From assembly GCA_963971425.1 (NCBI GenBank), contig OZ020514.1:17705406-17769405 (forward strand): a DNA stretch of 64,000 nt, read 5' to 3'. Below the pieces are notes generated by a model. That model worked only from the letters and a program-made list of their open reading frames with translations, had not been told where the DNA came from and ran no database searches. This document shows, piece after piece, positions 5,773-61,428 of the stretch. The DNA comes from Bryoerythrophyllum caledonicum. Its lineage: Eukaryota; Streptophyta; Bryopsida; Pottiales; Pottiaceae. The translations under genes were made by a program, and so were the position numbers. Position 1 is the stretch's first letter. Each line of letters starts with the position of its first letter.

Positions 5773-6344
5773 TTGGAGTTGATTAAACACAATACATACA
5801 ATAAAATACATACAAATACTTGCATAAACACGGGCACGGATACTGGTACACATATACGCAAAAATACTGGAATGAATACTGGTACGTACACTGGTACGAA
5901 CACTAGCTTGAATACCGGTACGAATATTGCTACGGATACTGGTACGAATACTAGTTTGGATACTAACACGAATACTGAGATAAATACCAGTATAAATACT
6001 AAAACTAAGACAAATATTAAAACACACACTAATATAATCATACATGCGAATAACAACACAAAACCAAGTACAACTACACCGACACACACATATACAAAGA
6101 CAAATACATACCACCTAAGTAAAACATACACATACATATACATATACAACGGCAAACACATACTACCCAAAAAGTACAAAATAGAATACCAAAGCCACAC
6201 ACAAAAACAAAAAAAACTTAAAAACAAAAACCCATCTACTACAAAATACTAATCCTAATTGGTGGGGACATAGAGACCAACCCGGGACCCATGTCAAACG
6301 TACTTAAAAGTCACCCTACCTCACACAAAAAAAATTCCAAAACA
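5773..6344 (+). pseudogene. LINE ORF2 N-terminal Thr/Asn-rich region, copy L
   Basis: Low-complexity coding sequence built of NTGT, TGTN and TNTN steps (for example NTGTYTGTNTSLNTGTN), matching similar stretches of copy R. The repeat frame runs to 6252. The 2A motif and what follows lie in another frame (about 6243-6344), so a frame change has occurred, and a TAG at 6345-6347 separates this part from the endonuclease region. The coding strand is rich in A and C and very poor in G, like the rest of ORF2. Confidence 0.7.
6267..6290 (+). other. 2A-like ribosome-skipping motif, copy L
   Basis: Encodes DIETNPGP, preceded by hydrophobic residues and GG (ILILIGG). This matches the D-(V/I)-E-x-N-P-G-P core at which viral and LINE 2A peptides make the ribosome skip the last Gly-Pro bond. 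It sits upstream of the APE domain, as the 2A of trypanosome L1Tc sits at the N terminus of its ORF. It is intact although the surrounding frame is broken. Confidence 0.85.
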
Positions 6345-6347
6345 TAG

Positions 6348-8033
6348 TTTATACCAAATACCATAAAATTGCAACGTGAATACGAACACATTGCCCAAAA
6401 ATTTGCCCCCTTTTTTAAAACCACACACACATCACATCAAACACATATCAACACATACCCATATATCGCCCGATATATAAACCAATGTAATAGACACCCA
6501 CCATCCCACATCCTATATGCCCTAATCATCACCATACACCCAAACTTAGACCATTGCAATCAACTCCTAAATACACAAAATCAAAACATAACGCAATGGA
6601 CCGATACACTATTACACACTCTACAAAATCTACAAAACCCAACCGAAAGACACATTAACATCCCACACCCTTACACAACATTCCTTGTAACCAATCTAAA
6701 CATCATAAACCATAACACATCGGTAAACAAAGAATTATATGACTTTATACACAACCAAAATACCCCCCAATCAATTGACATGATAAAACAAAAATTCCCC
6801 TACCTCCCAAACAAAATCATAAATGAGTCACTAAAATGCCTAAACCCCCTCCTAGAATACACACACCCGCCCCCACCGCCGAACTACATCCCATCCCAAA
6901 ACCATAACCCATACACGAACAACAACAACAACACAAGCATAATAACATGGAACGCCTCATCCCTCAACACCGCGCTCCCAAACTTACAAAACATAATTAT
7001 ACACACTAACACACTACCGGCACTCATAGTCATACAAGAAACAAAAATATCGGCCACAAAATCCACAAAATACATACAAAGACTATTTCCCGACTACAAA
7101 CTTATCTTTAATAATACACATGCCCTAACACGATGCATACAACAAAGAAGACCATATACATCGGGCCGAGGGGGCCTCCTCACTCTCATACACAAAAACT
7201 ACGCCTTTTTAGGCAATATAAAAAAAATTCCCACCCTAATGAACATATCCCCATACCTCCAAACTATGGAAATCTCTAATCACCCACTACAATCATGGCT
7301 AATCCACCACATATACATGCCATCCCACCCTGAAGACATTAGACTCACCGAGGACATCAAAACTAACATCACCACCCATATTACCAACAACCCCAACCAC
7401 AACCACATCTTATGTGGCGACTTCATTAGAAACATTGCCCTCATAGGAAAACAAAACGGAAACCATCACACACCACCACAAATAACAGACATACAATGGA
7501 AACAATTTACAGAAAACCTAAACTTTAATTATATACCCACAAACATTACATACTCTAGACAAGGAGGATACAACTATAGTGACTCGAGCCTAATTGATGG
7601 ATTTTATGTCCGTGCAATTAACCATAATACATTTACTTCTTTAACAAACAATAACATTCACCTAAATTCCGATCACTCACCCATACAACTCCACATTCCA
7701 AACAACACATTCATAAACCATACACCACCCACCACAAACAACGACCACATACATATCCTCAACCCCATTCCACAAAACAACATAGAATTATTCAACACAA
7801 AATTCTTCGAGGAAAACTCACTACGCATTGACTCCCTAATAAACGAATTAGAAACTAATAACCATCTTTCCCAAACGCAATGGCAAGAAGCCTGTCAGAC
7901 TCTAGATACACTCATCAGCAACATATCCAATACAATCAAACAAGCCTGCAAAGCCCAACCCATACCACCAATGACAAATAGAACATTACAACAAGGTGGA
8001 TATTTATCCCAAAAATATGGAAACAACATCTAA
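6348..8033 (+). pseudogene. LINE ORF2, APE endonuclease part, copy L
   Basis: Frame open from after the TAG at 6345 to 8033. APE-type (exonuclease-endonuclease-phosphatase) motifs are visible: TWNASSLN (about 6948), VIQETKIS (about 7030), RGGLLTLIH, HIYMPSHPED, CGDF (about 7410), and SDHSPIQLH (about 7668). In copy R the fourth motif is CGDFNRD; here it is CGDFIRN, so a catalytic Asn is lost. This domain would nick target DNA to prime reverse transcription. The region before it (6369-6890) is conserved in both copies but not assigned. Confidence 0.85.
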
Positions 8034-35700: not shown

Positions 35701-35903
35701 GTATTAGTGGTTGCCATACACGTATGAGGTTTAGGTAGGGTTTGCGTGTGAGATTACCCGAGTACCAAAGTTGATTACCAGGAGGTTGAAAGATGATTTC
35801 ATACTCATAGCACCTGGTGGAGGGAAAAGTGGATTCGTGGAAGCTTGCAGGGACACTATTACCATGGTTTGAGGGTTTCAAGATTAGTTCGCAAAGAAGA
35901 AGA

Positions 35904-35930
35904 ACGCCGGTTCCCGAAGGGAACCGGCGT
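35904..35930 (-). other. Hairpin at LINE copy R 3' end
   Basis: Perfect 12-bp arms (ACGCCGGTTCCC and complement) with a 3-base loop, about 210 bp after the ORF2 stop and followed, in transcript sense, by GTTCTTCTTCTTTGC. Some LINE reverse transcriptases recognise a 3' stem-loop and have short-repeat tails; that role here is inferred. Confidence 0.55.
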
Positions 35931-36142: not shown

Positions 36143-39100
36143 CTAAGGGGGGTCTTGCCTATCAGGGAGGACTTGGTTGTTTTCGATTTTGCGTTTATGC
36201 AGTAAAATAGACATGGCATGTTGAATAGCGATGGTGTTGATATTTTTAAAGGTAGTTTTAATTGTATCAATGGGTATCTTGAAGGTATCTTCGAGAGTTT
36301 TCATAGATGGGATAAAGGTGGTGGCACGAGTGCCGGATGTGATAACAATAAGGGGGTCCACATTCCAGCCGAGGGCAATGATGTCGTCTATGAGGGGTTG
36401 GTATTTGTCTATTTTGTTTTGTATTGTTTCCGGGGAGAATCTATCGTTGCAATATGTAAATTTGATGAATTGAATGGTGTAGTCTTGGTTGATGTTCTCG
36501 GATGGTGGGTCGTTGTATGGTAAACCTTTGACACAAAGAATGTCCGGTTTGAGCCTAACGTTGCAATGACATCTTTGGGTCATACATGAGCATGGAAGTA
36601 GCCATGGGGGGACCGTGTTTTCTTGTGGATTGCTATTAAAAGTGTCGGCGTTCATAAGTATGAAACATCTCGATTTATTGTAGGAGGTGATTAGTTTTCG
36701 GACTTCCCATACCGCTTTGTTATGTCTTTTAACAATTAGAGAGTGTATGTGGTGGTTTTGGCATTTGAGTAGCACATGAAGCCATGTGTCGGGGTCTGTT
36801 GAGGGGCATATGGGGCATGTTATGGATGGAAATCTTTCTATTCCAAAGAAGAGTTGTTTGCGAGCGTTTCCCATGTACTGACCCATACGGAATTTGATGA
36901 GGCACGTTATTTGTGAGTCTGAGATGATGAGGTTTTTCCAAAAGTTTGTAGAGAGTTCATTGTCTATGTCGTTATTGTTAGTCCATTTTTCTATGTTAGG
37001 AATATTTTTTGAGATTGTATCCAGGTTGTTGTAGAGGTCTTGTTTTTTGAGATATTTGCCCAGAAATCTAATTGGGCCTTTGTCGGGGGTATCTTCTTTG
37101 GAAGGCCAATCTTCTTTTTGAAAGTAGTATGGGGTGGCATGAGCATGTTCGTGAGGGTCTTTGGCGTTTTTGTGTGTTTTTTCTCGGCCTTCTTTTGCAA
37201 GTTTGTCTGCTTGTTCGTTGCCATCAATGTTGGCATGGGCTCTGACTTTGTGAAGGGTTGTGATTTGTGTACGTTTTTGTAACATTTGTACCATTGATGT
37301 TAGTATGGTTTGGTCGGGGTGACTGTTGTGAAGGGTTGGGTGTGTTATTTGAGTGTTTAGTAGGTAGAGTGCATTTATACAATCGGTGAATATATGTGCA
37401 GGTTCATTTTTGTATTTTGTTGTGATGATTTGTAGTGTTTTGTGAATGGCCATGAGTTCTGCTCTGAGGATATTTTGTAGTCCATGGAGTCTTTTGGCTA
37501 GTTTAATTTCTTTGGTAGAATTATATATGCCATAGCCAGCTTTTTCTCTGCGCCAAGAGCCCGGGCTAATTTGTTCCGGTGGTTTAAAGGAGCCGTCGGT
37601 GTAATAACTGTATGCGGGGTTAAATTTTGGTGTGGTATGAGTTGGGTAGTCTGGGAGAGGGGGAGGTAGGACGGAGTAGTTTAATGTGTTGTTGTCATAG
37701 TTTAATTTTGACCATTTTTTACTTTTGTTTACGGGGGTTTGTATGGGTGTTGGTGGGGCCGGTTTTGTGTATGGTCGTTGTATGTCTAGATTGTCTGTTA
37801 TGGAGGTAAGTTCGGCAAGTTGTTCTAGGGAGCCCAGGTTTTCATTTTGATGATGGACGCATAGTATTTGTAATGTAGATGGCTCTATTCGGGGTTTTTT
37901 TAGCTTGGGTGGGATATTAGGTTCTTCGTATGGTATTGTGTCTGCCTCGAATAATGCAATGATGTGGGAATCTGGGAATGGGTTTGAATGTTGGTTGTTG
38001 TTTTGGTACCAATTGTTGTTCGGTGTGACGATGATTGTTTTTGTGTTATTTGGATCGTGTTTGGCGGCAAGTCTAGCCCAATGTATGGCTTGTTCTATGT
38101 CTTTCTCGTTGTGGGGGTGAGCTATTCCATTTCCGATCCATTTGTGTTCAAAGGCCTTGCCTAGGGATCCAAATATTTTGTCTCTTTCGTACGGTGAGTA
38201 GAATTTATTTAGTTTGGTAGGACATGTGATCGGGGAGGAAAAATATGAGTATTCGATGTTAAAGGATGATATTAGTGAGTCTAAAATGGGGGTGGGTATT
38301 GTGTATTGCGCATTTTTGAGGGGGTCAGTTTTTGGTATTCGATATTTATATCTTTGGTAAAGCCATATTAGTTCGGTTTCAAAGGGTTGGGTTGTTGGTT
38401 CAATGTTTGTAGAGGTTTGTAATTTTGTATGATATTGGTTCCATAACCATTGGAGCCGGGTAATGGGTATGGTGTGTAAATGTCGGCCGTTTTCTTTGTA
38501 TAGATGTGCTTGATTGTTATCTATTTGAATTGTGTTTGAGGATGTAAGGATATCATTTTTGGGGTTGCATTCTGTTGTGTAGATGTTTAAGAGTGGGATA
38601 ATTATGGGTGGCGTTACGGACCTTGAGTCTGAGGATTGTTCTTGTAGATGGTGGGCAAGGATGATATCTGCGTATATTTTGTTTTGGATCTTTTGGTAGT
38701 ATTGTTTTAATTTTTCAGTGTTATGTGTGGAGGTATTGGTGTCATGCCGTGGAAAAAGGTCTCTTTGGGGGAGCCATTTATTGTATGTATTATCATTGTG
38801 TTGCCATTGGCATAGATATTTTGTGTAGGTATTTTGTATGTTATTTGTGTCTGTGTGTTGGATATGTTTATGGTTTATGATATCATTAATGGGGTATGTG
38901 GTAGGGTTTTTGGGGATGTATGTTGGGGGGCAGGAGTGGTATGTATGTGGAAGGTTAGGGGGATTGGTTGGTGTGGAAATATTTCTTGGGATGGTGTTAT
39001 TGTTGAGGGTGATGAATGGATCTTTAAGTGTATGAGAGTATGGGTGTATGTTGCAAGGAGTATGACATATAGTGGGGCATGTTATGTGGCAAAATAGTTG

Positions 39101-42100
39101 TTTAGCAACACTTAGGGCACTCTTTATTAGTTTAGATGGGGTGAAGTGGTAGGTTTTGAAGTCCTCATTGTTCATGATGTGTGTACCGTTAGGTAAGGTA
39201 ATTTGGTTTAGTTCAAAAATATTTTTTGAGAGGAGTTTTTGTAGAAGCTTTTGGGAGAGTTGGGCATTGAGTGTGTTATGATTTAATGTTTCTTGGCGCC
39301 ATAGTATTTCTAGTGTTGTAGGATTAGTGAGGAAGTTTGGGAGCATACTTTTAAGGTGGGCTTTAGCTATATGTTTTAATAAGAAGAATGTTCGTGTTAT
39401 TGGTGATCTTATGCAGTCACTTTTTTTAATTCTCGGTATGTTTTCAGCGCCACCATATTGGGCAAGGACATAGTGAGTTAATCCATTATATATTTTCCCA
39501 AGTCTTCCTTTATCGTTTAGAGCATTTTGCAGTTGTTTGCCTATATATCGGAGGTATGCGTTTTTTAGGGAGAAAGCTTCAAGTCCAAATAGGTTATGTG
39601 GTAGTTGGGTTATTGCGTTTGACATACATTTTGGTAATCCACATATGGTTTTTTGTATGGCTATTATTTTTTTATCAAGTTTTTTGATAGCTGGCATAGA
39701 GTATGGTACACCATAGAAACTGTATGCCACACCTGGGCGTAGTACGGTATCAACCATTTTTATTTTTTGTTTCATGGTGGCTGGGCATGTTGTTAGTTCT
39801 TTGCATTGTTTGATGAGCTTTGTGGTTGTAGTGTGGATTTGGATTTTCCATTTTAGTGAGGGAACAAGATTTGTACCTAGGTATATGTATGGTTCGTTTT
39901 GGTGTAGTATAGGGATTGGTTGGTTGCGGTAGTTGATGTTAGAGGTTTGCATTAGGGCTTTGAAAGTGGTAGGGTTCAATTTAGATTTGTTTGGGCATCC
40001 CGTAGCGGCACATTTTGGAACTCCCACATCCATGCCAGCCCATTTACAATATCTATCAATTTTATGGAGTTGTATTTGGATTGATTTGATTTTGTTAGTT
40101 ATGGTAGCTAGGTCATCTGCGTATGCGGCGGAGTTTATTGTGACTTGTGATGTGCCGAAAGTATATCCATTATTGCCTCTTTCTAGCCATCTAAGTAGTG
40201 GTTCTAAAAATATAATAAATAGGTATGGGCTGAGGGTGTCCCCTTGTATAGTTCCTCTTTGGATGGGTATAGGTTTTGTTTTCCCAAAGTGTTCACCGAT
40301 ATAGCAAGTAGATGATTGGGAATAGATGTTTCCAACAAGTGTAGTTGCTTCTTTTGGGTAGCCAAGGTCTGACATTATTGCTAGAAGTCTGGCATGATCA
40401 ATTGAGCCAAAGGCATTTTTGAAGTCCACGTATAGTATGTATATATTTTGGTTAGTAAATTTTGCGTCTTCTAATGCGGCTACTATAGTTTGTATTTGCC
40501 TTGCGGTACTTCTCTCTGCTCTAAATCCTTCTTGACTATCATGTAGGATTTTGAATTTTTCGCCGTATGAGGATAGTATGTGGGTGAGTGTACTGGTAAA
40601 AAGCTTATATATTGTGTTAGCTAGTGCAATTGGTCTATGATTGGGTAGCATGGATGGATCGCCTTTTTTGTATAGTAGAATTGTTTCACTTGTTTTCCAT
40701 GAATTTGGTATTTGTTTTTGTTTATAGCAGTGAGAAAAGAATAGGAATAGTAGTTTATGAAATCTTGGAGGCATGTTTTTGAGTATTGAGTTTGGTATGC
40801 GGTCTGGGCCTGGGGCTTTATTATTTCCAAGATTTTGGAGGCATGTGTCGTATGTGGCTCTGTTGAGGTATTTATGTAGTGGAATTTCTGGTTCGCCCCG
40901 TTTGTCAAGGGTATATCCGTCCAGGTCGTGCCAAGGGTATTGGCGTATTGCACATGTGCATTCTATTGTATGTTGTGGCTCGTAATTACATGTTGGTACT
41001 GTTGGTCTATTGGTTTTTGTTTGTTGGTTGAATATTTCATTCGCAATGTCTTCGGGGCTAGTTAGAATATTATTATATTGATCTTTGATACAATCCATTG
41101 GTGGGGATTCAAGGTTTTTAAAGACTTTTTTGTTAATTTTTTTGGGACTGATTTCGTATAGTTGTCTGTATTTTGAGATGGCTTTTTTAATGTTTTCTTT
41201 TGTGTATTTTGGGATTATTTTCCGGGCTTGTATGTTGGCATTTTTTGCAATTATCGCGATATCTTTTATCCATGTATCGTGGGGAAGGTCCGGAGGCGGC
41301 GGGGTAGGGATTTGGATGTGTTGTATAGTTAGTAGTTCGTTGTGTATGGGGTGGTTACGCCATTGAGGGTTGTTTTTTACAATTCTAATGGTTTTACGTA
41401 TGGTATGGTATGTGGTTAAGTGTTGTTTCCGGGGTAGATACCCGCCTTGTTGAGAGGTTCTGTTTGTCATTTGGGGTATTGGGTGTGCTCTACAAGTTTG
41501 TTCTAGTGTATCAGAGATTTTATTGATGAGTTTGTCTAGAGAGTGGCATGCTTCTTGCCATTGTGCTTGTGTTAATTGACTATTGATTTCAAGAGTGTTT
41601 ATGAGGGAGTCTATTTGTACGGTGTTTTCTTCGAAGAATTTTGTGTTGAATTTTTCTATGTTGGTTTTTGGGATGGGGTTGAGTATGCGTATAGTGTCTT
41701 TGTTTGGGATTGTGGGAGTTCTACTAATTAGTGTGTTATTTGGGATGTGCAGTTGTACGGGTGAGTGGTCCGAATTGAGAATAATATCTTTGTTTGTTGT
41801 GGAGGTGTATTGTGTGTTGTTGTTTGTATTTATATAGAAACCGTCTATTAGACTCCAATCACTATAATTATAGCCACCTTGTCTAGAGAATTGTGTATCC
41901 GTATGGATGTAAGTGAAGTTTAAGTTTTCTGTGAAGCGGCGCCATTGGTAATCAATGTTTTGAGGGGGGGTGTGATGGTTTCCATTTTGGCGGCCAATTA
42001 GCGCTATGTCTCTATTGAAGTCTCCACATAATAGGTATGTATGATTGGGATGATTATTAATATGGGTTGTAATAGTGTTTTGTATATCTAAGAGAAATCT

Positions 42101-42865
42101 AGTATCTTCGGGATGGGATGGCATATACATGTGAAAGATTAACCACGGTTGTAGTGGGTGATTAGTGATTTTAATTATTTGAATGTATGGTGATATGTGC
42201 ATTGGGGTAGGGATTTTGTTGATGTTGCCAGGGAATGTATATTTTTTGTGTATTAATGTAAGGAGGCCACCGCGGCCCGGTGTGTATGGTCTCCTTTGTT
42301 GCATGCATCTTGTAAGTGCATGTGTATTGTTAAAGATGAGTTTATAGTCTTGAAATATATTTTGTATATATTTTGTAGATTTTGTGGCGGTTAGTTTTGT
42401 TTCTTGTATAACTATAAGAGCCGCTGGTGTGTCTGTGTTTGCGACTAGAGTTTGTAAGCTAGGAAGGGCAGTGTTTAGTGAGGAGGCATTCCATGTGATT
42501 ATGTATGTATTTTCTTGGGTTGGTCTAATGTTTTGATTTTGGTTTTGAGGAGGGATGTAGGGAAGAGGTGGGGGTGGGTGGGTGTATTCCGGTATAGGGT
42601 CTAGACATTTTAGTGATTCACTTATGAGGTTGTTAGGGAGGTAAGGGAATTTTAGTTTTATTATATCATTTAAGGGTGGTATGTCTTGACTATGTAAGAA
42701 GTCGTATAGTCTTTTATGTATTGAGTTCTCATGGTTTATAATATTTTGGTTGTTTACTAGGAATTCAGTATAGGGGTGTGGAGTGTAAATGTGTCGTTCT
42801 GGTGGGTTTTGTAAGGTTAGTAAGGTTTGTAGGAGTGTATTAGTCCATGTAATTGTGTTCCAATT
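36143..42865 (-). CDS. LINE ORF2 main part, copy R
   Basis: Open for about 2240 codons (first ATG at 42304). Domains: APE endonuclease (TWNASSLN, VIQETKLT, CGDFNRDIALIG, NSDHSPVQLH; about 42500-41750); reverse transcriptase (HRPIALANTIYKLF, YVDFKNAFGSIDH, QGDTLSPYLF, AYADDLATI; about 40680-39650); chromodomain-like unit (38890-38740); a conserved unit of unknown fold (38206-37940); RNase H (YTDGSF, ILRAELMAI, FTDCINALYLL, ANIDGNEQADKLA; 37615-37180); CCHC finger (36821-36748); nuclease-like C terminus (36555-36270). A TAA at 42866-42868, where copy L has Gln, separates it from the N-terminal part in the same frame. All APE, RT and RNase H catalytic residues I can check are present. Confidence 0.93.
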   Translation of the reverse strand, partial: NWNTITWTNTLLQTLLTLQNPPERHIYTPHPYTEFLVNNQNIINHENSIHKRLYDFLHSQDIPPLNDIIKLKFPYLPNNLISESLKCLDPIPEYTHPPPPLPYIPPQNQNQNIRPTQENTYIITWNASSLNTALPSLQTLVANTDTPAALIVIQETKLTATKSTKYIQNIFQDYKLIFNNTHALTRCMQQRRPYTPGRGGLLTLIHKKYTFPGNINKIPTPMHISPYIQIIKITNHPLQPWLIFHMYMPSHPEDTRFLLDIQNTITTHINNHPNHTYLLCGDFNRDIALIGRQNGNHHTPPQNIDYQWRRFTENLNFTYIHTDTQFSRQGGYNYSDWSLIDGFYINTNNNTQYTSTTNKDIILNSDHSPVQLHIPNNTLISRTPTIPNKDTIRILNPIPKTNIEKFNTKFFEENTVQIDSLINTLEINSQLTQAQWQEACHSLDKLINKISDTLEQTCRAHPIPQMTNRTSQQGGYLPRKQHLTTYHTIRKTIRIVKNNPQWRNHPIHNELLTIQHIQIPTPPPPDLPHDTWIKDIAIIAKNANIQARKIIPKYTKENIKKAISKYRQLYEISPKKINKKVFKNLESPPMDCIKDQYNNILTSPEDIANEIFNQQTKTNRPTVPTCNYEPQHTIECTCAIRQYPWHDLDGYTLDKRGEPEIPLHKYLNRATYDTCLQNLGNNKAPGPDRIPNSILKNMPPRFHKLLFLFFSHCYKQKQIPNSWKTSETILLYKKGDPSMLPNHRPIALANTIYKLFTSTLTHILSSYGEKFKILHDSQEGFRAERSTARQIQTIVAALEDAKFTNQNIYILYVDFKNAFGSIDHARLLAIMSDLGYPKEATTLVGNIYSQSSTCYIGEHFGKTKPIPIQRGTIQGDTLSPYLFIIFLEPLLRWLERGNNGYTFGTSQVTINSAAYADDLATITNKIKSIQIQLHKIDRYCKWAGMDVGVPKCAATGCPNKSKLNPTTFKALMQTSNINYRNQPIPILHQNEPYIYLGTNLVPSLKWKIQIHTTTTKLIKQCKELTTCPATMKQKIKMVDTVLRPGVAYSFYGVPYSMPAIKKLDKKIIAIQKTICGLPKCMSNAITQLPHNLFGLEAFSLKNAYLRYIGKQLQNALNDKGRLGKIYNGLTHYVLAQYGGAENIPRIKKSDCIRSPITRTFFLLKHIAKAHLKSMLPNFLTNPTTLEILWRQETLNHNTLNAQLSQKLLQKLLSKNIFELNQITLPNGTHIMNNEDFKTYHFTPSKLIKSALSVAKQLFCHITCPTICHTPCNIHPYSHTLKDPFITLNNNTIPRNISTPTNPPNLPHTYHSCPPTYIPKNPTTYPINDIINHKHIQHTDTNNIQNTYTKYLCQWQHNDNTYNKWLPQRDLFPRHDTNTSTHNTEKLKQYYQKIQNKIYADIILAHHLQEQSSDSRSVTPPIIIPLLNIYTTECNPKNDILTSSNTIQIDNNQAHLYKENGRHLHTIPITRLQWLWNQYHTKLQTSTNIEPTTQPFETELIWLYQRYKYRIPKTDPLKNAQYTIPTPILDSLISSFNIEYSYFSSPITCPTKLNKFYSPYERDKIFGSLGKAFEHKWIGNGIAHPHNEKDIEQAIHWARLAAKHDPNNTKTIIVTPNNNWYQNNNQHSNPFPDSHIIALFEADTIPYEEPNIPPKLKKPRIEPSTLQILCVHHQNENLGSLEQLAELTSITDNLDIQRPYTKPAPPTPIQTPVNKSKKWSKLNYDNNTLNYSVLPPPLPDYPTHTTPKFNPAYSYYTDGSFKPPEQISPGSWRREKAGYGIYNSTKEIKLAKRLHGLQNILRAELMAIHKTLQIITTKYKNEPAHIFTDCINALYLLNTQITHPTLHNSHPDQTILTSMVQMLQKRTQITTLHKVRAHANIDGNEQADKLAKEGREKTHKNAKDPHEHAHATPYYFQKEDWPSKEDTPDKGPIRFLGKYLKKQDLYNNLDTISKNIPNIEKWTNNNDIDNELSTNFWKNLIISDSQITCLIKFRMGQYMGNARKQLFFGIERFPSITCPICPSTDPDTWLHVLLKCQNHHIHSLIVKRHNKAVWEVRKLITSYNKSRCFILMNADTFNSNPQENTVPPWLLPCSCMTQRCHCNVRLKPDILCVKGLPYNDPPSENINQDYTIQFIKFTYCNDRFSPETIQNKIDKYQPLIDDIIALGWNVDPLIVITSGTRATTFIPSMKTLEDTFKIPIDTIKTTFKNINTIAIQHAMSILLHKRKIENNQVLPDRQDPP
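36270..36555 (-). other. PD-(D/E)XK-like C-terminal domain of LINE ORF2
   Basis: After the CCHC finger (CPICPSTDPDTWLHVLLKC) comes RLKPDILCVKGLP, then TIQFIKFTYCNDRFSPETIQ, NKIDKYQPLIDDIIALGWNV and PLIVITSGTRATTFIP. CCHC, then R-x-PD, a (D/E)-x-K-like strand and K-x-x-KY is the layout of restriction-like endonucleases in R2-type and Dualen/RandI LINEs. The central E/D-x-K is not canonical (Q-F-I-K), so activity is uncertain. Confidence 0.45.
37940..38206 (-). other. Conserved unit of unknown fold in LINE ORF2
   Basis: Begins LNKFYSPYERDKIFGSLGKA and continues WIGNGIAHPHNEKDIEQAIH, WARLAAKHDPNNTKTIIVTP, NNNWYQN and SHIIALFEADTI. The order of a HPHN (where NPPF could have stood), a helix with WARLAAKH and an IIVTPNxNW strand faintly recalls amino-methyltransferase catalytic regions. 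The assignment is speculative; conservation between copies R and L is clear. Confidence 0.4.
38740..38890 (-). other. Chromodomain-like unit in LINE ORF2
   Basis: Reads YPINDIINHKHIQHTD then TKYLCQWQHNDNTYNKWLPQ and RDLFPRH. The pattern matches a chromodomain: starting strand IxxIxxHR, core YLVKWxGY, and TWEPxxDL. Copy L conserves it (TRYLCQWDHNNNTYNKWLPQ). Chromodomains can target integration to chromatin in chromoviruses; one in a LINE between RT and RNase H would be unusual. Confidence 0.5.
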
Positions 42866-44398
42866 TTAAGGATTTAGAAGTTGGTTACATTCATTTATGT
42901 TTGGATGAGTAGTGATTATTAGTGCATATAAGATGTGGGGTGGTGGATGCGTATTTTTTTGTTGTATGTATTGGGCAATGTTTGGGTGGGAAGTGTTGTG
43001 TATGTGGTGTAATGTATGTGTGTTTTTTAGAAATGGTACGAAGGGTTTTGCAATGTGTTCATATTCTGGTTGGAGTTTTATGGTATTAGGTATAAAGTAG
43101 ATTTTGGCATTTTTCTTATGTGATGTAGGATGTCTTTTTAGTATATTGGGCATGGGTCCCGGGTTGGTTTCAATGTCTCCTCCTAGAAGTAGTAGAAGTT
43201 TGTGGTATATATGTTTAGTGGTGTATTTTAAAGGCTTTGTTGTGTTATTAATGACTTGTTGGTTTGAGGGTAGGTGGATGTTTGTATTTTGTGTGTGAGT
43301 TGTGGGTTTATTTATTTTTATAGTAGGTGTAGTTGTTTTCGTCTTTAGTTTATTTTTTGTCCATGTGCTTTTTGTGGTTGTTTTTGTTTTAGTAGTGTAT
43401 GGATGTATATATGATTGGTTGTATTTCATCTTGGTTGTTTTTGTCCGTGTGCATATGTAACTATTATGTTTAAGACTATTTTTATGTGGGTTTATGTTGG
43501 TTTTTAAAGTGGCTTTTAAGTCCTTTTTTTCATATGCGGTGTTATTATATACTTTGTGGTTTGTACAATTGTTTGTTTTGGTGTTTGTATTAGTATTTGG
43601 TATGAAATATGTTTTGTCATTCTTTTTGTGCGAAGCGGGGTGTCTTTTTAATATGTTCGGCATGGGTCTTGGGTTAGTCCTCATGTCTCCTCCAATTAAC
43701 ATTAGTAGTTTGTGGTAGATGGGTTTTTTGTTTTGTTTTAGAATTTTTTGTTTTTGAATGTGGCTTTGGTATTTGTGTTTTTTTGATTGTATGTGTTTGT
43801 CTTTGTATGTGTATATGTATATGTATGTGTTTCGTTGATGGTGTGTGGTTGTCTTTGTGTGTGTGTATGTAGTTTTATGTGGTATTATATTAGTATTCTT
43901 TTGTATGTTTGTATTAGTGTATGTCACGGTTTTTGTCTTAGTATTTGTATCAGTATCTTTGTTAGTATTTGTGTTAGTATTCGTATGAGTACACGTACCA
44001 CTATTTGTATTGGTATTTGTATTTGTATAAGTATAAGTATTTGTATTTATATACATACCCGTATGTGTAGCAGTATACGTACCAGTATTTGTATCAGTAT
44101 ATTTATAAGTATACTCATCGATGTATGTATCAGTATAAGTATCGGTGTACGTATCAGTATATGTATCCGTATATTGAAATAATGAGTTTTGTAAAAGATT
44201 TCTTTCTAAACATATTTTGTCTAAAACTATGATTTCTAAAAACAGATTGATATTTATTTCAATCAGATTCGTATATATTTTTACATTTATTAGAATTTCT
44301 ATTTTTAGTAAGTCTATTTTTGGCACCTTCGGCGCCCAGCCGGCCAGCGAGACATTAATCCCACCCCCAATTTTAATAATCCTACATACTCTCAACAA
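42866..44398 (-). CDS. LINE ORF2 N-terminal part with duplicated 2A region, copy R
   Basis: Same frame as the main ORF2, ending at the TAA at 42866. It starts with a hydrophobic stretch, then a long Thr/Tyr/Asn repeat (QYTDTYTDTYTDTYTD, TNTNTNTNSGT). Then a first HKLLMLIGGDMRTNPRPMPN block and, 510 bp later, a second HKLLLLLGGDIETNPGPMPN block. Both are followed by ILKRHPxSHKKNxKxYFIPN, so the segment is a tandem duplication. The second block keeps the 2A core; the first has lost it. After the second 2A the protein runs into the APE region (EYEHIAKPFVPFL). Cleavage would free a Thr-rich leader from the enzymatic polyprotein. Confidence 0.85.
   Translation of the reverse strand: MLRVCRIIKIGGGINVSLAGWAPKVPKIDLLKIEILINVKIYTNLIEININLFLEIIVLDKICLERNLLQNSLFQYTDTYTDTYTDTYTDTYIDEYTYKYTDTNTGTYTATHTGMYINTNTYTYTNTNTNTNSGTCTHTNTNTNTNKDTDTNTKTKTVTYTNTNIQKNTNIIPHKTTYTHTKTTTHHQRNTYIYIYTYKDKHIQSKKHKYQSHIQKQKILKQNKKPIYHKLLMLIGGDMRTNPRPMPNILKRHPASHKKNDKTYFIPNTNTNTKTNNCTNHKVYNNTAYEKKDLKATLKTNINPHKNSLKHNSYICTRTKTTKMKYNQSYIHPYTTKTKTTTKSTWTKNKLKTKTTTPTIKINKPTTHTQNTNIHLPSNQQVINNTTKPLKYTTKHIYHKLLLLLGGDIETNPGPMPNILKRHPTSHKKNAKIYFIPNTIKLQPEYEHIAKPFVPFLKNTHTLHHIHNTSHPNIAQYIQQKNTHPPPHILYALIITTHPNINECNQLLNP
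43154..43177 (-). other. Intact 2A-like motif, copy R
   Basis: DIETNPGP, codon-aligned with ORF2 (codon 408 of the frame from 44398) and preceded by LLLLLGG. It matches the ribosome-skipping consensus and closely resembles LINE 2A peptides such as that of L1Tc (LLLSGDIEQNPGP). Confidence 0.9.
43664..43687 (-). other. Decayed 2A motif, copy R
   Basis: In-frame duplicate reading DMRTNPRP: the Glu and the Gly of the core are both Arg, so skipping is not expected. Confidence 0.85.
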
Positions 44399-44503
44399 AT
44401 TTCTACTATTTAATAGCGAACTCCCCTCATCTTTATATATAACAAATTTAATATTACTATTAACTTTCCATTTATCCCTGTAGATTATATTCCAATTTCT
44501 ATT

Positions 44504-45350
44504 TTATGTATGTACTCTTTCATTATTACTATCTTCTCTATTTATTTTTACTCTGAAATTTTTGTTTCTCATTACAAGTTTGGTTAATTTTGCATCCGTT
44601 CTTTTTGAATTTCTTACGAAGTATAATCTATTTTTAGTATTGCTGTTTATAGCTATAGCCTTCCTATTTATATTCTTATTATATTTGATTCGCATTACAA
44701 TTTTGGTGCATTTTTCATCCTTCTTTTTTGAATTTCTTAGGAAGCATATTCTATTTTTAGTACTATTGTTTATAGCTATATTCTTCCTATTTGTATTCTT
44801 ATTATATTTGATACGCATTATTGTTTTGGTGTATTTTTCATCCCTTATTTTTGAATTTCTTAGGAAGCATATTCTATTTTTAGTTCTGATATTTCTAGCT
44901 ATGTTCTTCATGTTTGTATTCTTATTATAATTACTTCCTATTACTAATTTGGTGAATTTTCCATTCCTCATTTTTGAATTTCTTAGGAAGCATATTCTAT
45001 TTTTAGTTCTGCTATTTATAGCTATGTTCTTCATATTTGTATTCTTATTATAATTAATTTCCATTACTAATTTGGTGAATTTTCCATCCCTTATTTTTGA
45101 ATTTCTTAGGAAGCATATTCTATTTTTAGTACAATTGTTTATGTCTATGTTCCTAATATTTGTATTCTTATGATAATTAATACTCATTACTAATTTTGTT
45201 ACTTTTCCATCCCTTATTTTTGATTTCCTTAGGAAGTCTATTCTATTTTTAGTACGGCTATTTATTGCTCTGTTCTTGTTATATGTATTCTTATGATAAT
45301 GGTTTTCTACCTGACCCTTTATTTTCTTCTTACATATCCTCTCCGATTTT
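44504..45350 (-). repeat. 123-bp coding satellite inside LINE copy R
   Basis: About 6.5 units with 123-bp period; the word attctatttttagta recurs near 44620, 44743, 44866, 44989, 45112 and 45235. On the minus strand the units stay in frame and encode a 41-residue repeat, KNTNMKNIAINSRTKNRICF then LRNSKMRDGKFTKLVM and a short linker; 44504-45187 is open. Copy L lacks it. Confidence 0.85.
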
Positions 45351-45359
45351 TTCGTTTTA

Positions 45360-46535
45360 TTAATTTATATTTCTTGCTCTATTTGAAACCTTTGAAATTT
45401 CATAAATATCTATCTTCTTCCTATTTAGTTTATAATATCTCTTTTTACTCTCCTTGATTTTCCTATTTTTAGCCATTTTTTCATCCCTTATCTTCTGATG
45501 GTTTCTGAATTTAGATTCCCTTCTACCCTTATTTATCTTTATTACAAGAAGTCCTTTATTGTTTTCATTATTATTGTTTCCTTTTTTGTTATATGTAGTT
45601 ATGATACTTATTTTCTCTTTCCTTTTATTATTTATTCTAATTCCATCTCTTCTCTTATTCCTTTTATTATTTATTTTTGTTTTCATACTTTTGTTTTTTG
45701 TTTGTATATTTAATCTATATCTTTGATTAATTTCATCCATTTCATTTATTTTTGGGTTTGTTTTTATTTTATTATGTGTAGTTGTATTGGTTGTGGTTGT
45801 ATTGGTTTTCGTCTTCACACGTGTGTTTTTATTGGTATATGTCTTGGTATTTGTTTTAGTATTAGTATTTGTCTCAGTATTTATGTCAATGTTTGTCTTA
45901 GTATAAGTATTTGTACCAATATTCATTCCAGATTTCGTACTAGTCTCCATATCAGTATTTAAACCTGTATTTGTATCAGTATTCGGTCCAGTATTCGTAT
46001 CAGAACCCGTATCAGTATTTGTTCCAGTGTTTGTACCTGTATATGTAATAGTGTGTGCATTATTGTTGGTATTTTCACTATGTATTGTATTGTATGTTAT
46101 GGGATATACTGTCGGCTTCAATTTTGTGTATGGAGCTTGAGATATGTATATTCCCATTTTTTTAATACAGTGTAGGTATTTCTTAATGCGAGTTTTGGTA
46201 TAATGTTGTATTTTGTATTGAGAGTATTGTTTAATACAATAGAATTGTTTGTGTAGTGCAAGTATTGGTATTTCTTTGTGGCTAAGGTATGTAAATGTTT
46301 TTGTATAGTTTTTGTATTGCATATAGTAAAAAATACAGCGTTTGGTATAGTATGTAGTATGGTATAGTCTACTGTATTTATCATGGTATTGGGTAAGGTC
46401 TCTAATACGGTATGTGTATATCGTTCTCACATACTTGTATGCTATTGCATATTTAAGACTAGTGTCAATAAAGTATTGTAAACTATAGTATATTGTAAGA
46501 TAGGTATGTATTTCCCTGCGGTCTTGGGAGGTCAC
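45360..46535 (-). CDS. LINE middle ORF, low-complexity, copy R
   Basis: 391 codons opening right after the ORF1 stop: ORF1 ends ATG TGA, and this frame can start at the overlapping GTG or be entered by frame change. It is Tyr/Thr-rich (YKYVRTIYTYRIRDLTQYHD), then Thr/Asn repeats (TGTNTGTNTDTGSDTNTG), then Lys/Asn-rich (NNKRNKRRDGIRINNKRKEK). Copy L has the same Tyr-rich and Thr-rich parts after its insertion. No known domain. It may be an untranslated remnant or an extension of ORF2. Confidence 0.5.
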   Translation of the reverse strand: MTSQDRREIHTYLTIYYSLQYFIDTSLKYAIAYKYVRTIYTYRIRDLTQYHDKYSRLYHTTYYTKRCIFYYMQYKNYTKTFTYLSHKEIPILALHKQFYCIKQYSQYKIQHYTKTRIKKYLHCIKKMGIYISQAPYTKLKPTVYPITYNTIHSENTNNNAHTITYTGTNTGTNTDTGSDTNTGPNTDTNTGLNTDMETSTKSGMNIGTNTYTKTNIDINTETNTNTKTNTKTYTNKNTRVKTKTNTTTTNTTTHNKIKTNPKINEMDEINQRYRLNIQTKNKSMKTKINNKRNKRRDGIRINNKRKEKISIITTYNKKGNNNNENNKGLLVIKINKGRRESKFRNHQKIRDEKMAKNRKIKESKKRYYKLNRKKIDIYEISKVSNRARNIN

Positions 46536-48238
46536 ATGTTTGACTCAATTCTTGGATTGTTGGTTTTCCCCGTGATAGCTCGCATGGTTTGGAGTGTGGC
46601 AAGCATGGATTCCTCAATTGCCTCCATCTTTTCTTTCAAGTCATCGTGTAACTTGTCCGCATACTCCCTATTTTCTTGCCTTAGCTTCTTGTTGTTCTCC
46701 TCCAATAATTCTATCATGTCCTTCTTGGTGATGACCTCACTTTGCATGTTGAAGGTGGTCATTGTGTTCACAATGGCGGTATTGATGTCGCTAAATCCAA
46801 AATCCTTCACTTGGTCTTCGGTCGGTGGTTTTAGGCCTTCTAAGCTTCTAATGTGTGGTGCAAAATCCACATAATTTCCTCCAATGACATGTGTTTTCTT
46901 CACAAAGGTTCTATACACGATTGGGTTAGCACAAAGCACATTTGCACTACCATTGTGATTATTGCCTTCGGACCGGTGGAAATAAATAGACCTCACATTA
47001 GCTCCTCCCATTATTCTATAGATTTCGTGGGTGGTGTGTGGTGTGTCCAAACGGAGAGGGAGTGGTGAAAGAGTAAGAGTCAAAGCATCTTTTCTAGCCT
47101 TAGTTTCGAAAATACCTTTTGGTCCTTTTGAGTCAAGGACTTGTTTTGCTTGCACGACCTCCTTTCTCATGGTAATATGGTGCAACAATATCTTGGCCAC
47201 TTGTTGAGGTGTGGTCGCCATGATAAAGGCATGGGATTCGCCAAGTACCTTATGTACTCCGGTGATCTCAAACTTGTGTCCCCGATGAAAGCTATTTTCG
47301 AGTACTTCCTTGAAGAGCACTTGTGCGGAGATGTTCACTAGAGTGTCACACTTAACCTTCACGGAGAGGTTAGAACCATTGGCAATTCCATGATATGTCT
47401 TACACACCTTTCCAACTACATATTCACCATCAATCGTTAGAATAAAGGGCTTAATGCCCTTGAGTAGCATTAGACCATCAATCTCCGGTTTAAGGAGGTG
47501 CAATTTAACACTTCCTGCCCATACCCCTTTAATTTTTCCATGCTTAATGCTTAAACATTGGATGTCAATTGGGTCAATAAGGTCTATCCCAAGTATAATG
47601 TCCATTTTTTTAAGTTTTTCTTCAACCATCTTCTTTACAACATCTTTCATGATAGGAGTTTTGGGAGTTTCAAAGAAGATAGCAACATGAAAATCAAGGG
47701 AGAGACCGGAACTCTCACTAGTTTTGATGTCGAAAGGCACTTGAGTTACGTTGTAGTGTTGGCCTTCAACTCCATTCCTTGTCATGGGGTATAGTAGTTG
47801 CGGGGTTCGTGGGAAGGCCGTCCTAGTGTTGCATACCTCCAAAGCGTCCTCCTCCTTCATTCCCCTTGTCATCATGTCTTCTGCCGACTCCCCGCTAAAT
47901 AGTTCTTCTGCACCTTCTTCAATTGCCAAGGCCTCCATGGCTTTGAAACCCATCCAAAACTTGGGCTTAGTGAGTTCTGGTTCATAGAAGGACTTACCTT
48001 TTTCATTGGGGGTGAACTTGCTCTTCTTACTTGTGTTGTTCTCCTCTTCTGTTCTTATCTGTGGCCTCATGTTGTGGGTTCTATGAGGTGTGCTGTCCGG
48101 GGATTCAACATCCATGTATGTGGCCAAGTTCTTCTTCGCGTTCCTTGATGGTTGGTCCTCTTGTAGTCTCTCATCCTGTGAGCTGGTTTCTGGATTTCGT
48201 AAAGTCCTTCCTTCTGAAGTTTTCCTCGAATTCATCAT
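46532..48238 (-). CDS. LINE ORF1 protein, copy R (intact)
   Basis: 568 codons from ATG 48238 (MMNSRKTSEGRTLRNPETSS) to TGA 46532. Charged, disordered N terminus (to about 90); a conserved block KPKFWMGFKAMEALAIEEGA; mixed alpha/beta middle (KPFILTIDGEYVVGKVCKTY, ITGVHKVLGESHAFIMATTP); a possible RRM-like strand-helix unit around NVRSIYFHRSEGNNHNGSAN; C-terminal coiled coil from about residue 490 (LLEENNKKLRQENREYADKL). The expected role is RNA binding and RNP assembly. Unlike ORF2, the coding strand has ordinary G content. About 90% identical in protein to copy L. Confidence 0.85.
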   Translation of the reverse strand: MMNSRKTSEGRTLRNPETSSQDERLQEDQPSRNAKKNLATYMDVESPDSTPHRTHNMRPQIRTEEENNTSKKSKFTPNEKGKSFYEPELTKPKFWMGFKAMEALAIEEGAEELFSGESAEDMMTRGMKEEDALEVCNTRTAFPRTPQLLYPMTRNGVEGQHYNVTQVPFDIKTSESSGLSLDFHVAIFFETPKTPIMKDVVKKMVEEKLKKMDIILGIDLIDPIDIQCLSIKHGKIKGVWAGSVKLHLLKPEIDGLMLLKGIKPFILTIDGEYVVGKVCKTYHGIANGSNLSVKVKCDTLVNISAQVLFKEVLENSFHRGHKFEITGVHKVLGESHAFIMATTPQQVAKILLHHITMRKEVVQAKQVLDSKGPKGIFETKARKDALTLTLSPLPLRLDTPHTTHEIYRIMGGANVRSIYFHRSEGNNHNGSANVLCANPIVYRTFVKKTHVIGGNYVDFAPHIRSLEGLKPPTEDQVKDFGFSDINTAIVNTMTTFNMQSEVITKKDMIELLEENNKKLRQENREYADKLHDDLKEKMEAIEESMLATLQTMRAITGKTNNPRIESNM

Positions 48239-50600
48239 GCTTGGGGGTGTGAGGTCGCCGGGGGATGGGAGGTCGTTAGTGGGTGGGAGGTTTCTGGTGG
48301 GTGCAAGGTCACTAGTGGGTGTGAGGACTGTAATGGATAGGAGGTCATTGGAGGGTGGGGGGTTGCTAGTGGGTGGTAGGTCGTAAGTGGTTGCGAGGCC
48401 GTTGGGGGGTAGGAGGTCGCTGAGAAGTTGGGGTCCTTGGGCAGGGGTCAGGAGTCCAGGCAGGGTCGCGTTGTGCCTGTTCTGTGGTTGTCTTCGTGAG
48501 GGGGGTGGTTGCTTGGCTTCTGTTGGAGCGGGTGACCTCGGGTGGGTGTAGGGTTTGGGTTGGGTTTGAGCACCGACTTGGGCTTCTTCAGGGACGAGGA
48601 GCGGTCGCCTGGGTGCTGCGGAGCCTCGTGTAGTGGTGGGTTTTAGGCAAGTGCCGTCTGTGGAGATCGAGCGCCGTCTGTGTAGTCAGTTGGTTGCCGC
48701 GGGGGCTTCTGCGTATGATCTAGCTGCTGCAGGGGCTTCTGCGTACGATCCAGCTGCTGCGGGGGCTTCTGCGTACGATCCAGCTGCTGCGGGGCCTTCT
48801 ACGTATGATCTAGCTGTTGCGAGGGCTTCTACATACGATCCAGCTGCTGCGGGGCCTTCTGCATATGATCTAGCTGCTGTAGGGGCTTCTCCGTATGATC
48901 CAGCTGCTGCGGGGGTTTCTGCGTACGATCCAACTGCTTCGGGGGCTTCTTCGTATGATCTAGCTGCTGCGGGGGCTTCTGCGTACGTTACAGCTGCAGT
49001 GGGGGCTTCTGCGTAGGATCCAACTGCTTCGGGGGCTTCTACGTATGATCTAGCTGTTGCGGGGGCTTCTGCGTATGATCCAGCTGCTTCGGGGACTTCT
49101 GCATATGATCTAGCTGCTGCGGGGGCTTCTGCGTATGATCCAGCTGCTTCGGGGACTTCTGCATATGATCTAGCTGCTGCGGGGGCTTCTGCGTATGATC
49201 CAGCTGCTGCGGGGGCTTCTACGTACGATCCAGCTGCTGCGGGGGCTTCTACGTATGATCCAGCTGCTGCGGAGACGAGCTTGTACAAGGAGAGGAGCAG
49301 CCGTCCAGTTCTAGTCCGGGCGCGCTTGTCTAAGTGGATATAGGGTTCGGGGAGGGTTGAGTCGGGTCTGGGTAGAGGTGAGGGTTGTGGGAAGGGGGGG
49401 TTGTGAAGGTGTAGGAGGGGAGTTGCAGAAAGAATTGAAGGTGTTGTAGGAATGCTTACCTCCTTGTTTGTCTTTGAGCTGAATCTTGCTTGTTCGTGGG
49501 ATACTTGCTGCTGTATAGTTCTTGCTTGACTGCCAATCTCCTTCTGTTGATCGCCTCCAGGTCGCCTATCGCAGCTGCTGCTGGTGTGTGGGGTTGAGAT
49601 GTTGGTGTAGATCGCGAGCTGATGTGTGTGCGCGTGGTTGATCCTCAACTTTCGGGGTGGGTTGAGGCCTTTCTGTACTCCTTGTGCTTGTTGTATAGAT
49701 CTGTAGTGATTTTGCGAGCGCTTCTGCGTGTAATGTATAGCTACAACCTTCCTAGTGATGTGCTTAAAGGTTGTCATGTGTCTAGGTGCTTGAAACGTGT
49801 TGTTTGATGTGAAAAGGATAAGGACTTGTAATCTAAGTATGACTTCTTTGCTGCAACGAAAAGATGAATGGTGATGGAGTTTGGTGAGGAACTTACCTGG
49901 ATCTGGAAGAGTTGACCTTTGGAGTTGCCTGTATAGATCTGGAGTTTTGCGCGTTTGGATCCCCGTAGACTTCGCGGTCGATGTGTCCGGCAGCGATCTG
50001 TGGGCTGCTGTTCTGCTGGGATTGCCGATGTCGGCTCTGCTGTTGCAGCAGCTGGTCCTCTTGGCGAGATCCACTCCTGAGTGTGAAGACCTACATGCTT
50101 TGTTAGCGAGATCTAGTGTTAAGAACGAATAATCATAAGAGATAGGAGGGGGAGGGGTAGCCTGTAGTAATGAATTGAGGCTGCGTTGCAGCCGTATTTG
50201 GTGATGTCCACGCGCTGTCTTGGAGTTTAAGTTCCTGGGTTGGGGTGGGGGACTTGCTGGGGAGGGTTACAGATTAGATCCCTACACTCCAGATCTTGGA
50301 TGGGACGTTCTCTATGTTAGCTCAGTGTTTGCAGATCTGGCCCAACACTAAGTTTCCCGCTTCAGAACAAACTTGCACAAATCTGCACCTACTAAGGACA
50401 TCTTCCAACTCCCTCCTCAGATCTGGTGTCCGAGCCAACCAACACGTCTACTTTGCAACTCAAATCTCACCCAAGCCACCACAGATCTGCTTACTACGAG
50501 GACTCTCAATAGGGCCAGCCAACTCCTATTGCACGCAGTTTGCAGCTCACAGGCTAAGTCCCCACTCCCCTCACTAGGAAATACGGAGCTCACTCGCTGG
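48239..50600 (-). other. 5' leader of LINE copy R
   Basis: Leader upstream of ORF1. It contains a 462-codon minus-strand open frame (48686-50074) whose second half is the minisatellite below (AAGSYAEAPA repeats) and, between 48239 and 48420, a Pro/Thr-rich stretch. AGATCT-rich sequence near 50.28-50.5 kb resembles the start of copy L. Translation of the leader frame is unproven. The 5' limit is approximate. Confidence 0.5.
48690..49275. repeat. 30-bp minisatellite, about 19 units
   Basis: Plus-strand units of the type gcttctgcgtatgatctagc plus tgctgcgggg, in register for nearly 590 bp. They encode ASAYDLAAAG on plus and AAGSYAEAPA on minus with no stop on minus. Variation is mainly at tat/tac and cta/cca positions. 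Confidence 0.95.
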
Positions 50601-59522: not shown

Positions 59523-59661
59523 TGGATATTATTATGAAAAGTTAAGAATTGTTTAAAAGAAAATATAAATATAAATATATTATAAGAATCGGTCTTCGGT
59601 TATAATTTTATGGAGTATAAAGTGGCGTGTTATAGATTATGTATGGAAGAAATGAAGGATT

Positions 59662-61428
59662 ATGAGTAGTGATAATGAAGACAATTTACAAAGAAGGAAT
59701 CGACAGATTAAAGAAAGATACGATAGATTGTGCTCAAGGGAGTCGTTACGAAAATTAAGGGAAAGAACTCAACGAGAAAAACTTAGGAGAGTGACATCAT
59801 TTTCGTGTTCGAGAAGTGGACGTAGTAAGAGTCCAGAAGGATTGGAAACAAGTGATAGTTCTTCAGACGAAGGTTTAAATAAAACCAGAAGTAAAGGAAG
59901 AGGAAGTATTCGAGTAGATATTGCAAGAAAACCAATAATACAACCAATGGCTGAAGCGGCACCTGAAGTCCCGATTGCGGTAGCAATGGGAGCAGTAGGA
60001 GATCGCACCACCAGTGTTGCACCATTGCCAACATTTAGTGGTTGGCCAGGTTCAGATCCAGATCATCATTTGTCTCAATTTTTGACAGCTTGTGTAGCCA
60101 ATAATGGAAGAACTGAGGATATATGGCTGAGATGGTTTCCTGCCACGTTAAAAGATACGGCATTTGAATGGTATAATCGTCAAACAGTTGGTCAATTTCC
60201 AAATTGGGAAGCTTTAAAAAACGCTTTTCTAATGCATTTTAGGCCAATTGGATTTGAAAATCGTCTTCGAGAAAGTTTAATGACAAGCAGAATGTTTTTA
60301 GGCGAACCAGTCCAGTCTTATTATGGGAGAGTTGCAGATATACTTCGCAAATGGCCGAATAATCAAATGCCGGAGTCATTTATATTGTCAATAATAACGA
60401 ATGGTTTGAATCCACAGGAATTGAAAATGTTTGTAAATGAGGCTCAACCAGCCACCGTAGGAGCATCTTTAGAACGTGCAAAGATTTGGGAAGAATGTCA
60501 TTATGATCAATTGTTACCTGTAGGCCCTACGTTGATTCCCAATACGGTGAATCCACAAGTACAAAGAGGAAATACATTAATAGGAAGTTATCCATGGGCT
60601 GTGAATGCGGCTCAAGGGGCTACCAATTTACAAAGAGTGATCAATGCAACGCCGTTGCAATCAGTACCGCCCACAGCAGTAGTACCGTATGCTTCGGCAT
60701 TGACTTATCCCCCACATGAATTACCAATTTCAAATGCTGCACCAAATTCGAATGAGACGTTATTATTAAATCTTACAAAGAAAATGGAAGAATTGGCGGT
60801 TAATATGGCCAAAGAAAAAGAAAAACGGCAAAAGCCTACCAATACAAGACCCAATGTATGGTGTAATAATTGTAAGGGGCAGGGTCACTTTGATACGGAA
60901 TGTCCGTCCCCTCGACAAACTGGAGTACAATGCAAGTGTTGCGGTGGAAAACATCCTACCGCTAAATGTTGGTATTTAAATGGTCAACCGCAATTTGGTG
61001 CTCAGACAATGATTCAACCGACTCAATGGGATGTTAATCAAGTGCAAACTGGAAATATGGGAAATTGGGACGGTAATCGTTCCAATCGACAAAATAGAGG
61101 TGGTGGAAATTTTCAAAATCCAAATTTTAATCCAAATTATGGACCCAATATGCAAAATTGTAGCAACAACCAACAAGGCAATTTCCAAGCTATGCCAAAT
61201 CAACAGCACAATACAACATTTGTTGCGACTGGACAACCAGGATCTTTTACTAAAGCTACATGGAATCAGCCTAGTCGTTATATACCCGTTGAAACACCCA
61301 ATATGCCAGGTGGTACACGAAGAAAGATAGTTCGTTGTTTTCGATGTCGGCAGTTGGGGCATTATGCCAGTGATTGCCCAAATCCAAAATTTGTAGAAGA
61401 TTATGCACCTGTTTGCGGGAAATTGTAA
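59662..61428 (+). CDS. gag: gag of Ty3/gypsy element
   Basis: 588 codons. Arg/Ser-rich N terminus; retrotransposon gag domain (FSGWPGSDPDHHLSQFLTAC, LKDTAFEWYNRQ, WEALKNAFLMHFRPI); then a Gln/Asn-rich linker and zinc knuckles VWCNNCKGQGHFDTECPSP, VQCKCCGGKHPTAKCW and VRCFRCRQLGHYASDCPNP. Forms the capsid-like particle and binds genomic RNA. Looks whole. Confidence 0.9.
   Translation: MSSDNEDNLQRRNRQIKERYDRLCSRESLRKLRERTQREKLRRVTSFSCSRSGRSKSPEGLETSDSSSDEGLNKTRSKGRGSIRVDIARKPIIQPMAEAAPEVPIAVAMGAVGDRTTSVAPLPTFSGWPGSDPDHHLSQFLTACVANNGRTEDIWLRWFPATLKDTAFEWYNRQTVGQFPNWEALKNAFLMHFRPIGFENRLRESLMTSRMFLGEPVQSYYGRVADILRKWPNNQMPESFILSIITNGLNPQELKMFVNEAQPATVGASLERAKIWEECHYDQLLPVGPTLIPNTVNPQVQRGNTLIGSYPWAVNAAQGATNLQRVINATPLQSVPPTAVVPYASALTYPPHELPISNAAPNSNETLLLNLTKKMEELAVNMAKEKEKRQKPTNTRPNVWCNNCKGQGHFDTECPSPRQTGVQCKCCGGKHPTAKCWYLNGQPQFGAQTMIQPTQWDVNQVQTGNMGNWDGNRSNRQNRGGGNFQNPNFNPNYGPNMQNCSNNQQGNFQAMPNQQHNTTFVATGQPGSFTKATWNQPSRYIPVETPNMPGGTRRKIVRCFRCRQLGHYASDCPNPKFVEDYAPVCGKL

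Follow-up and report, generated by a model that had tools for sequence, protein, structure and literature searches.

A moss LINE with one drifting and one conserved 2A-like site, read as an in-frame chimera of two LINE families

The window analysed here is a stretch of 64,000 nucleotides of the moss Bryoerythrophyllum caledonicum (contig OZ020514.1). A large retroelement occupies its minus strand, to which all positions refer unless the plus strand is named. The enzyme part of the second open reading frame (ORF2; 36143..42865, 2240 codons, delimited by ORF and Pfam matches) comprises an APE-type endonuclease (PF03372, 41978..42499, 25.3 bits at a cut-off of 24.5), a reverse transcriptase (PF00078, 39875..40660, 95.8 bits, cut-off 29.6) and an RNase H (PF00075, 37184..37612, Pfam). 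With APE endonuclease and reverse transcriptase in one ORF the element qualifies as an APE-type LINE. A PCIF1-like domain (PF12237, 38015..38431, 41.2 bits, cut-off 31.1) lies between reverse transcriptase and RNase H. The C-terminal region (36146..37180) contains CPxC..H..C, RHN and KPD motifs, which we take to be like those of LINE restriction-like endonucleases; CPxC..H..C, RHN and K/RPD motifs are common to most of the 25 relatives shown. Judged from these motifs, two endonucleases, one APE-type and one with restriction-like-type motifs, are likely combined in one element. The 3' end, TTCTTCTTCTT, was placed at 35894..35904, where homology to two other copies ends (at 35894 and 35887).

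The enzyme part matches 113 proteins in public collections, and PF12237 is listed in 21 of these. PCIF1 is a cap-adenosine methyltransferase with an NPPF motif; at the aligned place the window element reads AHPHN, and its relatives NPEY, HPPE, SPPF and similar. 2A-like cores occur among the enzyme relatives in P0002, P0026, P0031 and P0052 (first 60 proteins by name) and in P0077, P0084 and P0103 (all 113). Elsewhere in the window a gag-like protein is encoded at 59656-61428 on the plus strand; it has 29 relatives, seven of them named Physcomitrium patens, with 50-78% identity, which points to a moss as the probable host.

ORF1 (46532..48685) counts 717 codons from stop to stop and is without a Pfam match. 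Its last codons (46532-46544) are a Met followed by the stop, and the next frame opens overlapping this end. The further 5' part of the ORF2 leader (44504..46544) is repeat-rich and its frame is interrupted in the window copy, which is broken by stops at 42866-42868 and 44504-44506 and by a frame change around 45360-45364. At 44504-45364 the leader contains a tandem array of roughly six units, each some 41 residues long (KNRICFLRNSK...); the 5' leader differs in other copies. A further copy, L099 with L030, has ORF1 and the ORF2 frame with both 2A blocks open across the 7 kb examined. In two copies no Met codon lies near the opening of ORF2, the first Met being found at 74 and 122 codons, and for this overlap without a nearby Met frameshifting or re-initiation is possible.

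Between this leader and the enzymes, the minus-strand ORF at 42866-44503 contains two 2A-like blocks in the same frame, 510 bp apart, as the first-pass annotation had described. Re-reading of the sequence also bore out the HKLL prefix and the MPNILKRHP suffix which it had assigned to both blocks. Its span for the pair, 43154..43687, ends 6 bases short of the upstream core. The downstream block (43088..43216, profile match 90.1 bits), which is under purifying selection as detailed below, includes the intact core GGDIETNPGP (43154..43183) in a hydrophobic context, YHKLLLLLGG directly preceding it. This site fits the definition of the StopGo/2A core, (D/G/C/N)(V/I)ExNPGP (PMC12846837). The upstream block (43598..43726, profile match 65.4 bits) consists of a hydrophobic lead-in, a core and about 20 further codons; its core (43664..43693) is decayed, reading GGDMRTNPRP in the window copy and most commonly GGDMETNPRP in the family. 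The upstream site lacks the intact motif and Gly-18, a residue that every active 2A reportedly needs (PMC5972666), and is accordingly predicted to be dead. Within the window copy 35 of 47 residues and 102 of 141 bases (72%) are the same in the two blocks. Leader B, a Thr/Asn/Lys-rich spacer (43217..43592), separates the two sites, and a Thr-rich leader, open in the 2A frame, precedes the upstream one (43727..44503). On the plus strand, a second LINE in the window carries a single intact 2A block (6228..6356).

A coding pattern for GGDIETNPGP matches 1405 times in the 437-Mb genome, and the same pattern reversed has no match there. Of 4554 first-look candidates, 123 scored copies contain the two-2A segment; they are 93-97% identical to the window copy and have open frames of up to 3757 codons. 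Chance is excluded as a source of the motif by the 1405 matches against none for the reversed pattern together with the 123 copies.

The state of both sites was compared in 42 distinct double-2A places. Thirty of these are the best protein-ranked copies, among them the window copy, eleven come from the pattern sample (one in both sets), and L039 and L040 were chosen for two intact sites 510 bp apart, 101 of the 1405 pattern places being listed; L004 and L029 were left out as repeat sampling of one place. All 42 places have an intact downstream core; for 12 of them this was a selection criterion, for the other 30 it was not. A family in which most copies lack any intact core, the outcome that would have spoken against a kept site, is therefore not what was found, for all 30 copies not chosen for the downstream core retain it. 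The expectation of a single intact 2A per copy agrees with 40 of the 42 places, where the downstream core is kept and the upstream NPGP lost, and fails in L039 and L040, where both sites are intact. As the upstream NPGP is absent from 40 places, most copies must have inherited the decay. The loss had been read as that of one site in the window element; instead it extends through the subfamily, 23 of the 30 protein-ranked copies having GGDMETNPRP, and the change from E to R is confined to the window copy among the 42 places. L033, with DIETNPRP, was considered as a stepping stone of the decay and dropped, its nearest rows being DMETNPRP copies. A separate group with CGDIETNPGP followed by MPNVF has mostly Gln-rich leaders (L042, L043, L046, L055, L059, L067, L075, L077, L078, L091 and L092).

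Replacement and silent changes were counted in the 30 of the 123 scored copies that rank as most like the window copy; variants were scored against the majority sequence of a 2-kb piece, each distinct variant once and with kinship ignored. In these 30 copies, 19 replacement and 4 silent changes and one stop fall in the 24 upstream 2A codons, against 1 replacement and 7 silent changes in the 24 codons of lead-in and core at the downstream 2A (Fisher p 0.0009). Under the observed mutation spectrum the downstream site departs from the neutral expectation (p 0.0015), whereas the upstream site fits neutrality (expected replacement share 0.71, p 0.26). The two sets of 23 codons that follow the 2As contrast less clearly, with 13:5 behind the upstream and 5:6 behind the downstream site (Fisher p 0.24). 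Both the leader preceding the upstream block (25:6; 60 codons tested) and leader B (48:17) look as without selection, and enzyme codons 30-200 past the downstream core are constrained (56:40, p 0.0043). The proposal of the first-pass annotation that one site was free to decay and the other kept by selection is borne out, and the kept site is the one adjoining the enzymes.

The same annotation had derived the pair from a duplication, and on this point the data lead elsewhere. For L039 the comparison covered 58 consecutive 2A loci listed for one contig, out of 1405, all chosen for an intact core. In four single-2A loci, L041, L045, L057 and L072 (family A), the match to L039 runs as far as base 2145 and resumes with the enzyme-side block, at bases 2489-2528. 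Family B (L058, L071, L081, L082, L096 and L098) matches L039 without a break, starting at base 2142 and extending across leader B and the 2A into the enzyme. The ATAC at the joint, at 43593..43596 in the window copy, is present in both parents. Some family-B loci also match the upstream block of L039 via their own single 2A, and L098 matches a leader stretch at about 71%. In L039, identity to the four family-A singles amounts to 93-95% for the upstream block and 72% for the enzyme start; identity to seven family-B loci is 88-93% for the downstream block and 85-92% for the enzyme start. Likewise, the upstream block of the decayed copy L083 is 92-93% identical to L057. The downstream block of L039 and the upstream block of L040 share 74% identity. 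In an enzyme tree of 61 of 67 rows (six were left out as too short), its 19 double-2A copies group together (100/99), and a separate clade (100/100) joins the second LINE of the window to the four family-A singles. The second LINE, sister to the family-A singles, would accordingly be a relative of the leader donor lying about 37 kb away in the same window. By these comparisons of parents the element is an in-frame chimera of the order [leader A-2A] + [leader B-2A-enzymes].

The analysis had set out from a tandem duplication within one LINE, with doubling of a 510-bp unit and decay of one of the copies, which would explain homologous in-frame blocks at a spacing of 510 bp. However, the two blocks are not each other's closest relatives, with 72% mutual identity in the window against the 93-95% and 88-93% to two other families in L039, and homology to both parents switches at one point. 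The idea was dropped as contradicted by the parent matches and is now highly improbable.

The reading preferred here, to which a probability of about three in four is given, is a chimeric joint at which the enzyme-side 2A is selected and the upstream 2A is redundant and drifting. A family-A 5' part, consisting of leader, 2A and about 23 further codons, would have been fused in frame upstream of a family-B leader and 2A, giving a product of the order leader A-2A-leader B-2A-enzymes. The joint at the four-base ATAC is seen in the alignments, and template switching during reverse transcription is the most likely route to it. The enzyme-adjacent 2A would free the leader by ribosome skipping, as motif and conservation suggest, and be held by selection, while the upstream 2A may have turned redundant, lost the essential Gly in the amplifying lineage and drifted since. 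The leaders would then be near-neutral, exchanged carriers, and the 2A would insulate the enzyme N terminus from them.

As to the route, DNA recombination or gene conversion between insertions may have produced the chimera and the leader exchanges described below in place of template switching; a swap between near-identical backbones could be conversion across the conserved 2A block. This is conceivable but rather unlikely, given that the founding joint is non-homologous with a microhomology of four bases, as expected of a template jump, and that chimeric LINE-1 insertions by template switching or RNA ligation have been described (PMC13174262). As to the fate of the upstream site, it may have been repurposed and not decayed, for example as a non-skipping joint that keeps both leaders fused. 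The DMETNPRP form is common to most copies, and the absence of a working upstream site recurs in another lineage (L054, L070 and L080, by junction or deletion), yet the neutral 19:4 ratio and the stop among the upstream codons speak against a new function, which appears quite improbable. A further alternative concerns the kept site, where the enzyme might be initiated at the Met after NPGP and the 2A-like peptide retained otherwise, e.g. as a targeting or stalling peptide. All 58 sampled loci have a Met codon after NPGP, so the enzyme could also arise by internal initiation; in two copies the ORF2 frame opens with no Met nearby. A 2A-like peptide can serve as a signal sequence (PMC4981915). 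It is nevertheless the exact skipping core that is kept, and the 1:7 ratio in the codons before that Met indicates translation in the 2A frame; initiation at this Met is accordingly considered improbable.

On the downstream side of the joint L040 and the double-2A copy L083 share 92-100% identity, on the upstream side 51-93%; to the family-A locus L057, L040 is 85-98% identical upstream of the joint, and 95-98% over the last 360 bases. Since leader B of L040 and L083 is 93-100% identical though neutral-looking, the upstream difference is not ordinary drift. Close to the joint, the leaders of L039 and L054 share 92-98% identity. Between the ORF1 of the window copy and its counterpart in the second LINE (3044-4692, plus strand) identity is 87-93%, against 49% to the ORF1 of L099/L030, with L099/L030 and the window copy being 92% identical over 3956 bases of leader, 2As and enzyme start. 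Aligned in this way, different leaders are seen to sit on one enzyme backbone, and ORF1 seems to travel with the exchanged 5' end. Family-A-like leaders also occur on other enzyme lineages, namely L054, L070 and L080 (sister to L058), L097 (sister to L071) and, weakly, L065; loss in sister lineages is the alternative to separate leader gains. A regain of the intact upstream core by leader exchange in L039 and L040 fits the identity profile and is not forced by the trees: the AU test gave p 0.096 for the decayed copies as one clade in the family-B part and p 0.332 for the double copies as one clade in the upstream block. With the former value, a nesting of L039 and L040 in the decayed clade was dropped as unproven. 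In L100 with L018 the leader holds a second leader piece, 76% similar, further upstream, as if captures had been stacked.

A profile of the 2A block, applied to the same 58 intact-core loci of one contig, found an extra block or relic upstream in 19 loci and downstream in none. Its controls gave no antisense match and one match at 4.8 bits in reversed sequence. Eleven of the 19 cases belong to the double-2A family, and the relics of L054, L070 and L080, a separate lineage whose upstream core is disrupted by junction or deletion, are identical. The relic of L082 (4.3 bits) lies below the best reversed-sequence control. The L090 and L074 relics do not share the frame of the intact site; as L090 carries the start of an older enzyme part, it may be a nested older insertion instead of a fusion. 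The relic of L068 is in frame, with intervening stops. The StopGo site may be a module boundary in a large moss LINE clade, where the leader, perhaps with ORF1, is a near-neutral, freely swapped cartridge, the conserved 2A block permits repeated capture of 5' ends with the enzyme untouched, and upstream 2A relics are a fossil record of captures. For this wider proposal the chances are evenly balanced.

Skipping signals are known in LINEs, while the selective reason for keeping them is less clear. The two-site chimera offers an internal control in this respect, because one site drifts and one is held in the same RNA, host and copies. The contrast of 19:4 with 1:7 would place the selected job at the joint of leader and enzyme, and it suggests a route by which LINEs may change their N-terminal ends with the enzymes unharmed. 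In addition, the copies provide a set of natural 2A variants from a plant, some intact and some broken, and if the interpretation is true the 1405 pattern matches would represent a large natural StopGo set in a land plant.

Dualen/RandI elements are green-algal LINEs with an APE, a C-terminal restriction-like endonuclease and an RNase H. The moss element would resemble them in its APE, its C-terminal restriction-like-type motifs and its RNase H; one named enzyme relative, P0030, is from the green alga Pleodorina starrii. In L1Tc of Trypanosoma cruzi the 2A is located at the N terminus. L1Tc is likewise a LINE with APE, reverse transcriptase and RNase H and with an active 2A in its coding region (PMC4748587). 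The moss LINE adds two 2As, a composite leader, a putative second endonuclease and a PCIF1-like domain, none of which is described for L1Tc in the consulted part of PMC4748587. APE-type LINEs of multicellular organisms that bear a 2A (Odon 2013, known through the citing papers PMC4981915 and PMC11512398) have the same core motif and proposed role; the moss host, the leader capture and the upstream 2A relics are features of the present case that may set it apart. In the open-access library searched, no paper was found on 2A-like retrotransposon sequences of Chlamydomonas or Physcomitrium, and for mosses none that appeared to be on this subject. A 2026 survey found that StopGo works in plants, without evidence that plant viruses make natural use of it (PMC12846837). 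Picornaviruses with several 2A(NPGP) sites likewise have multiple skipping sites within a single reading frame (PMC11512398). These are viral polyproteins, however, whereas the upstream site of the moss LINE appears to be a drifting by-product of fusion. Finally, swaps of the LINE-1 5' UTR and chimeric LINE-1 insertions, for which template switching or RNA ligation has been proposed, likewise replace the 5' end and keep the coding part (PMC13174262); in the moss LINE, by contrast, what is exchanged comprises a translated leader with a skipping signal as its boundary.
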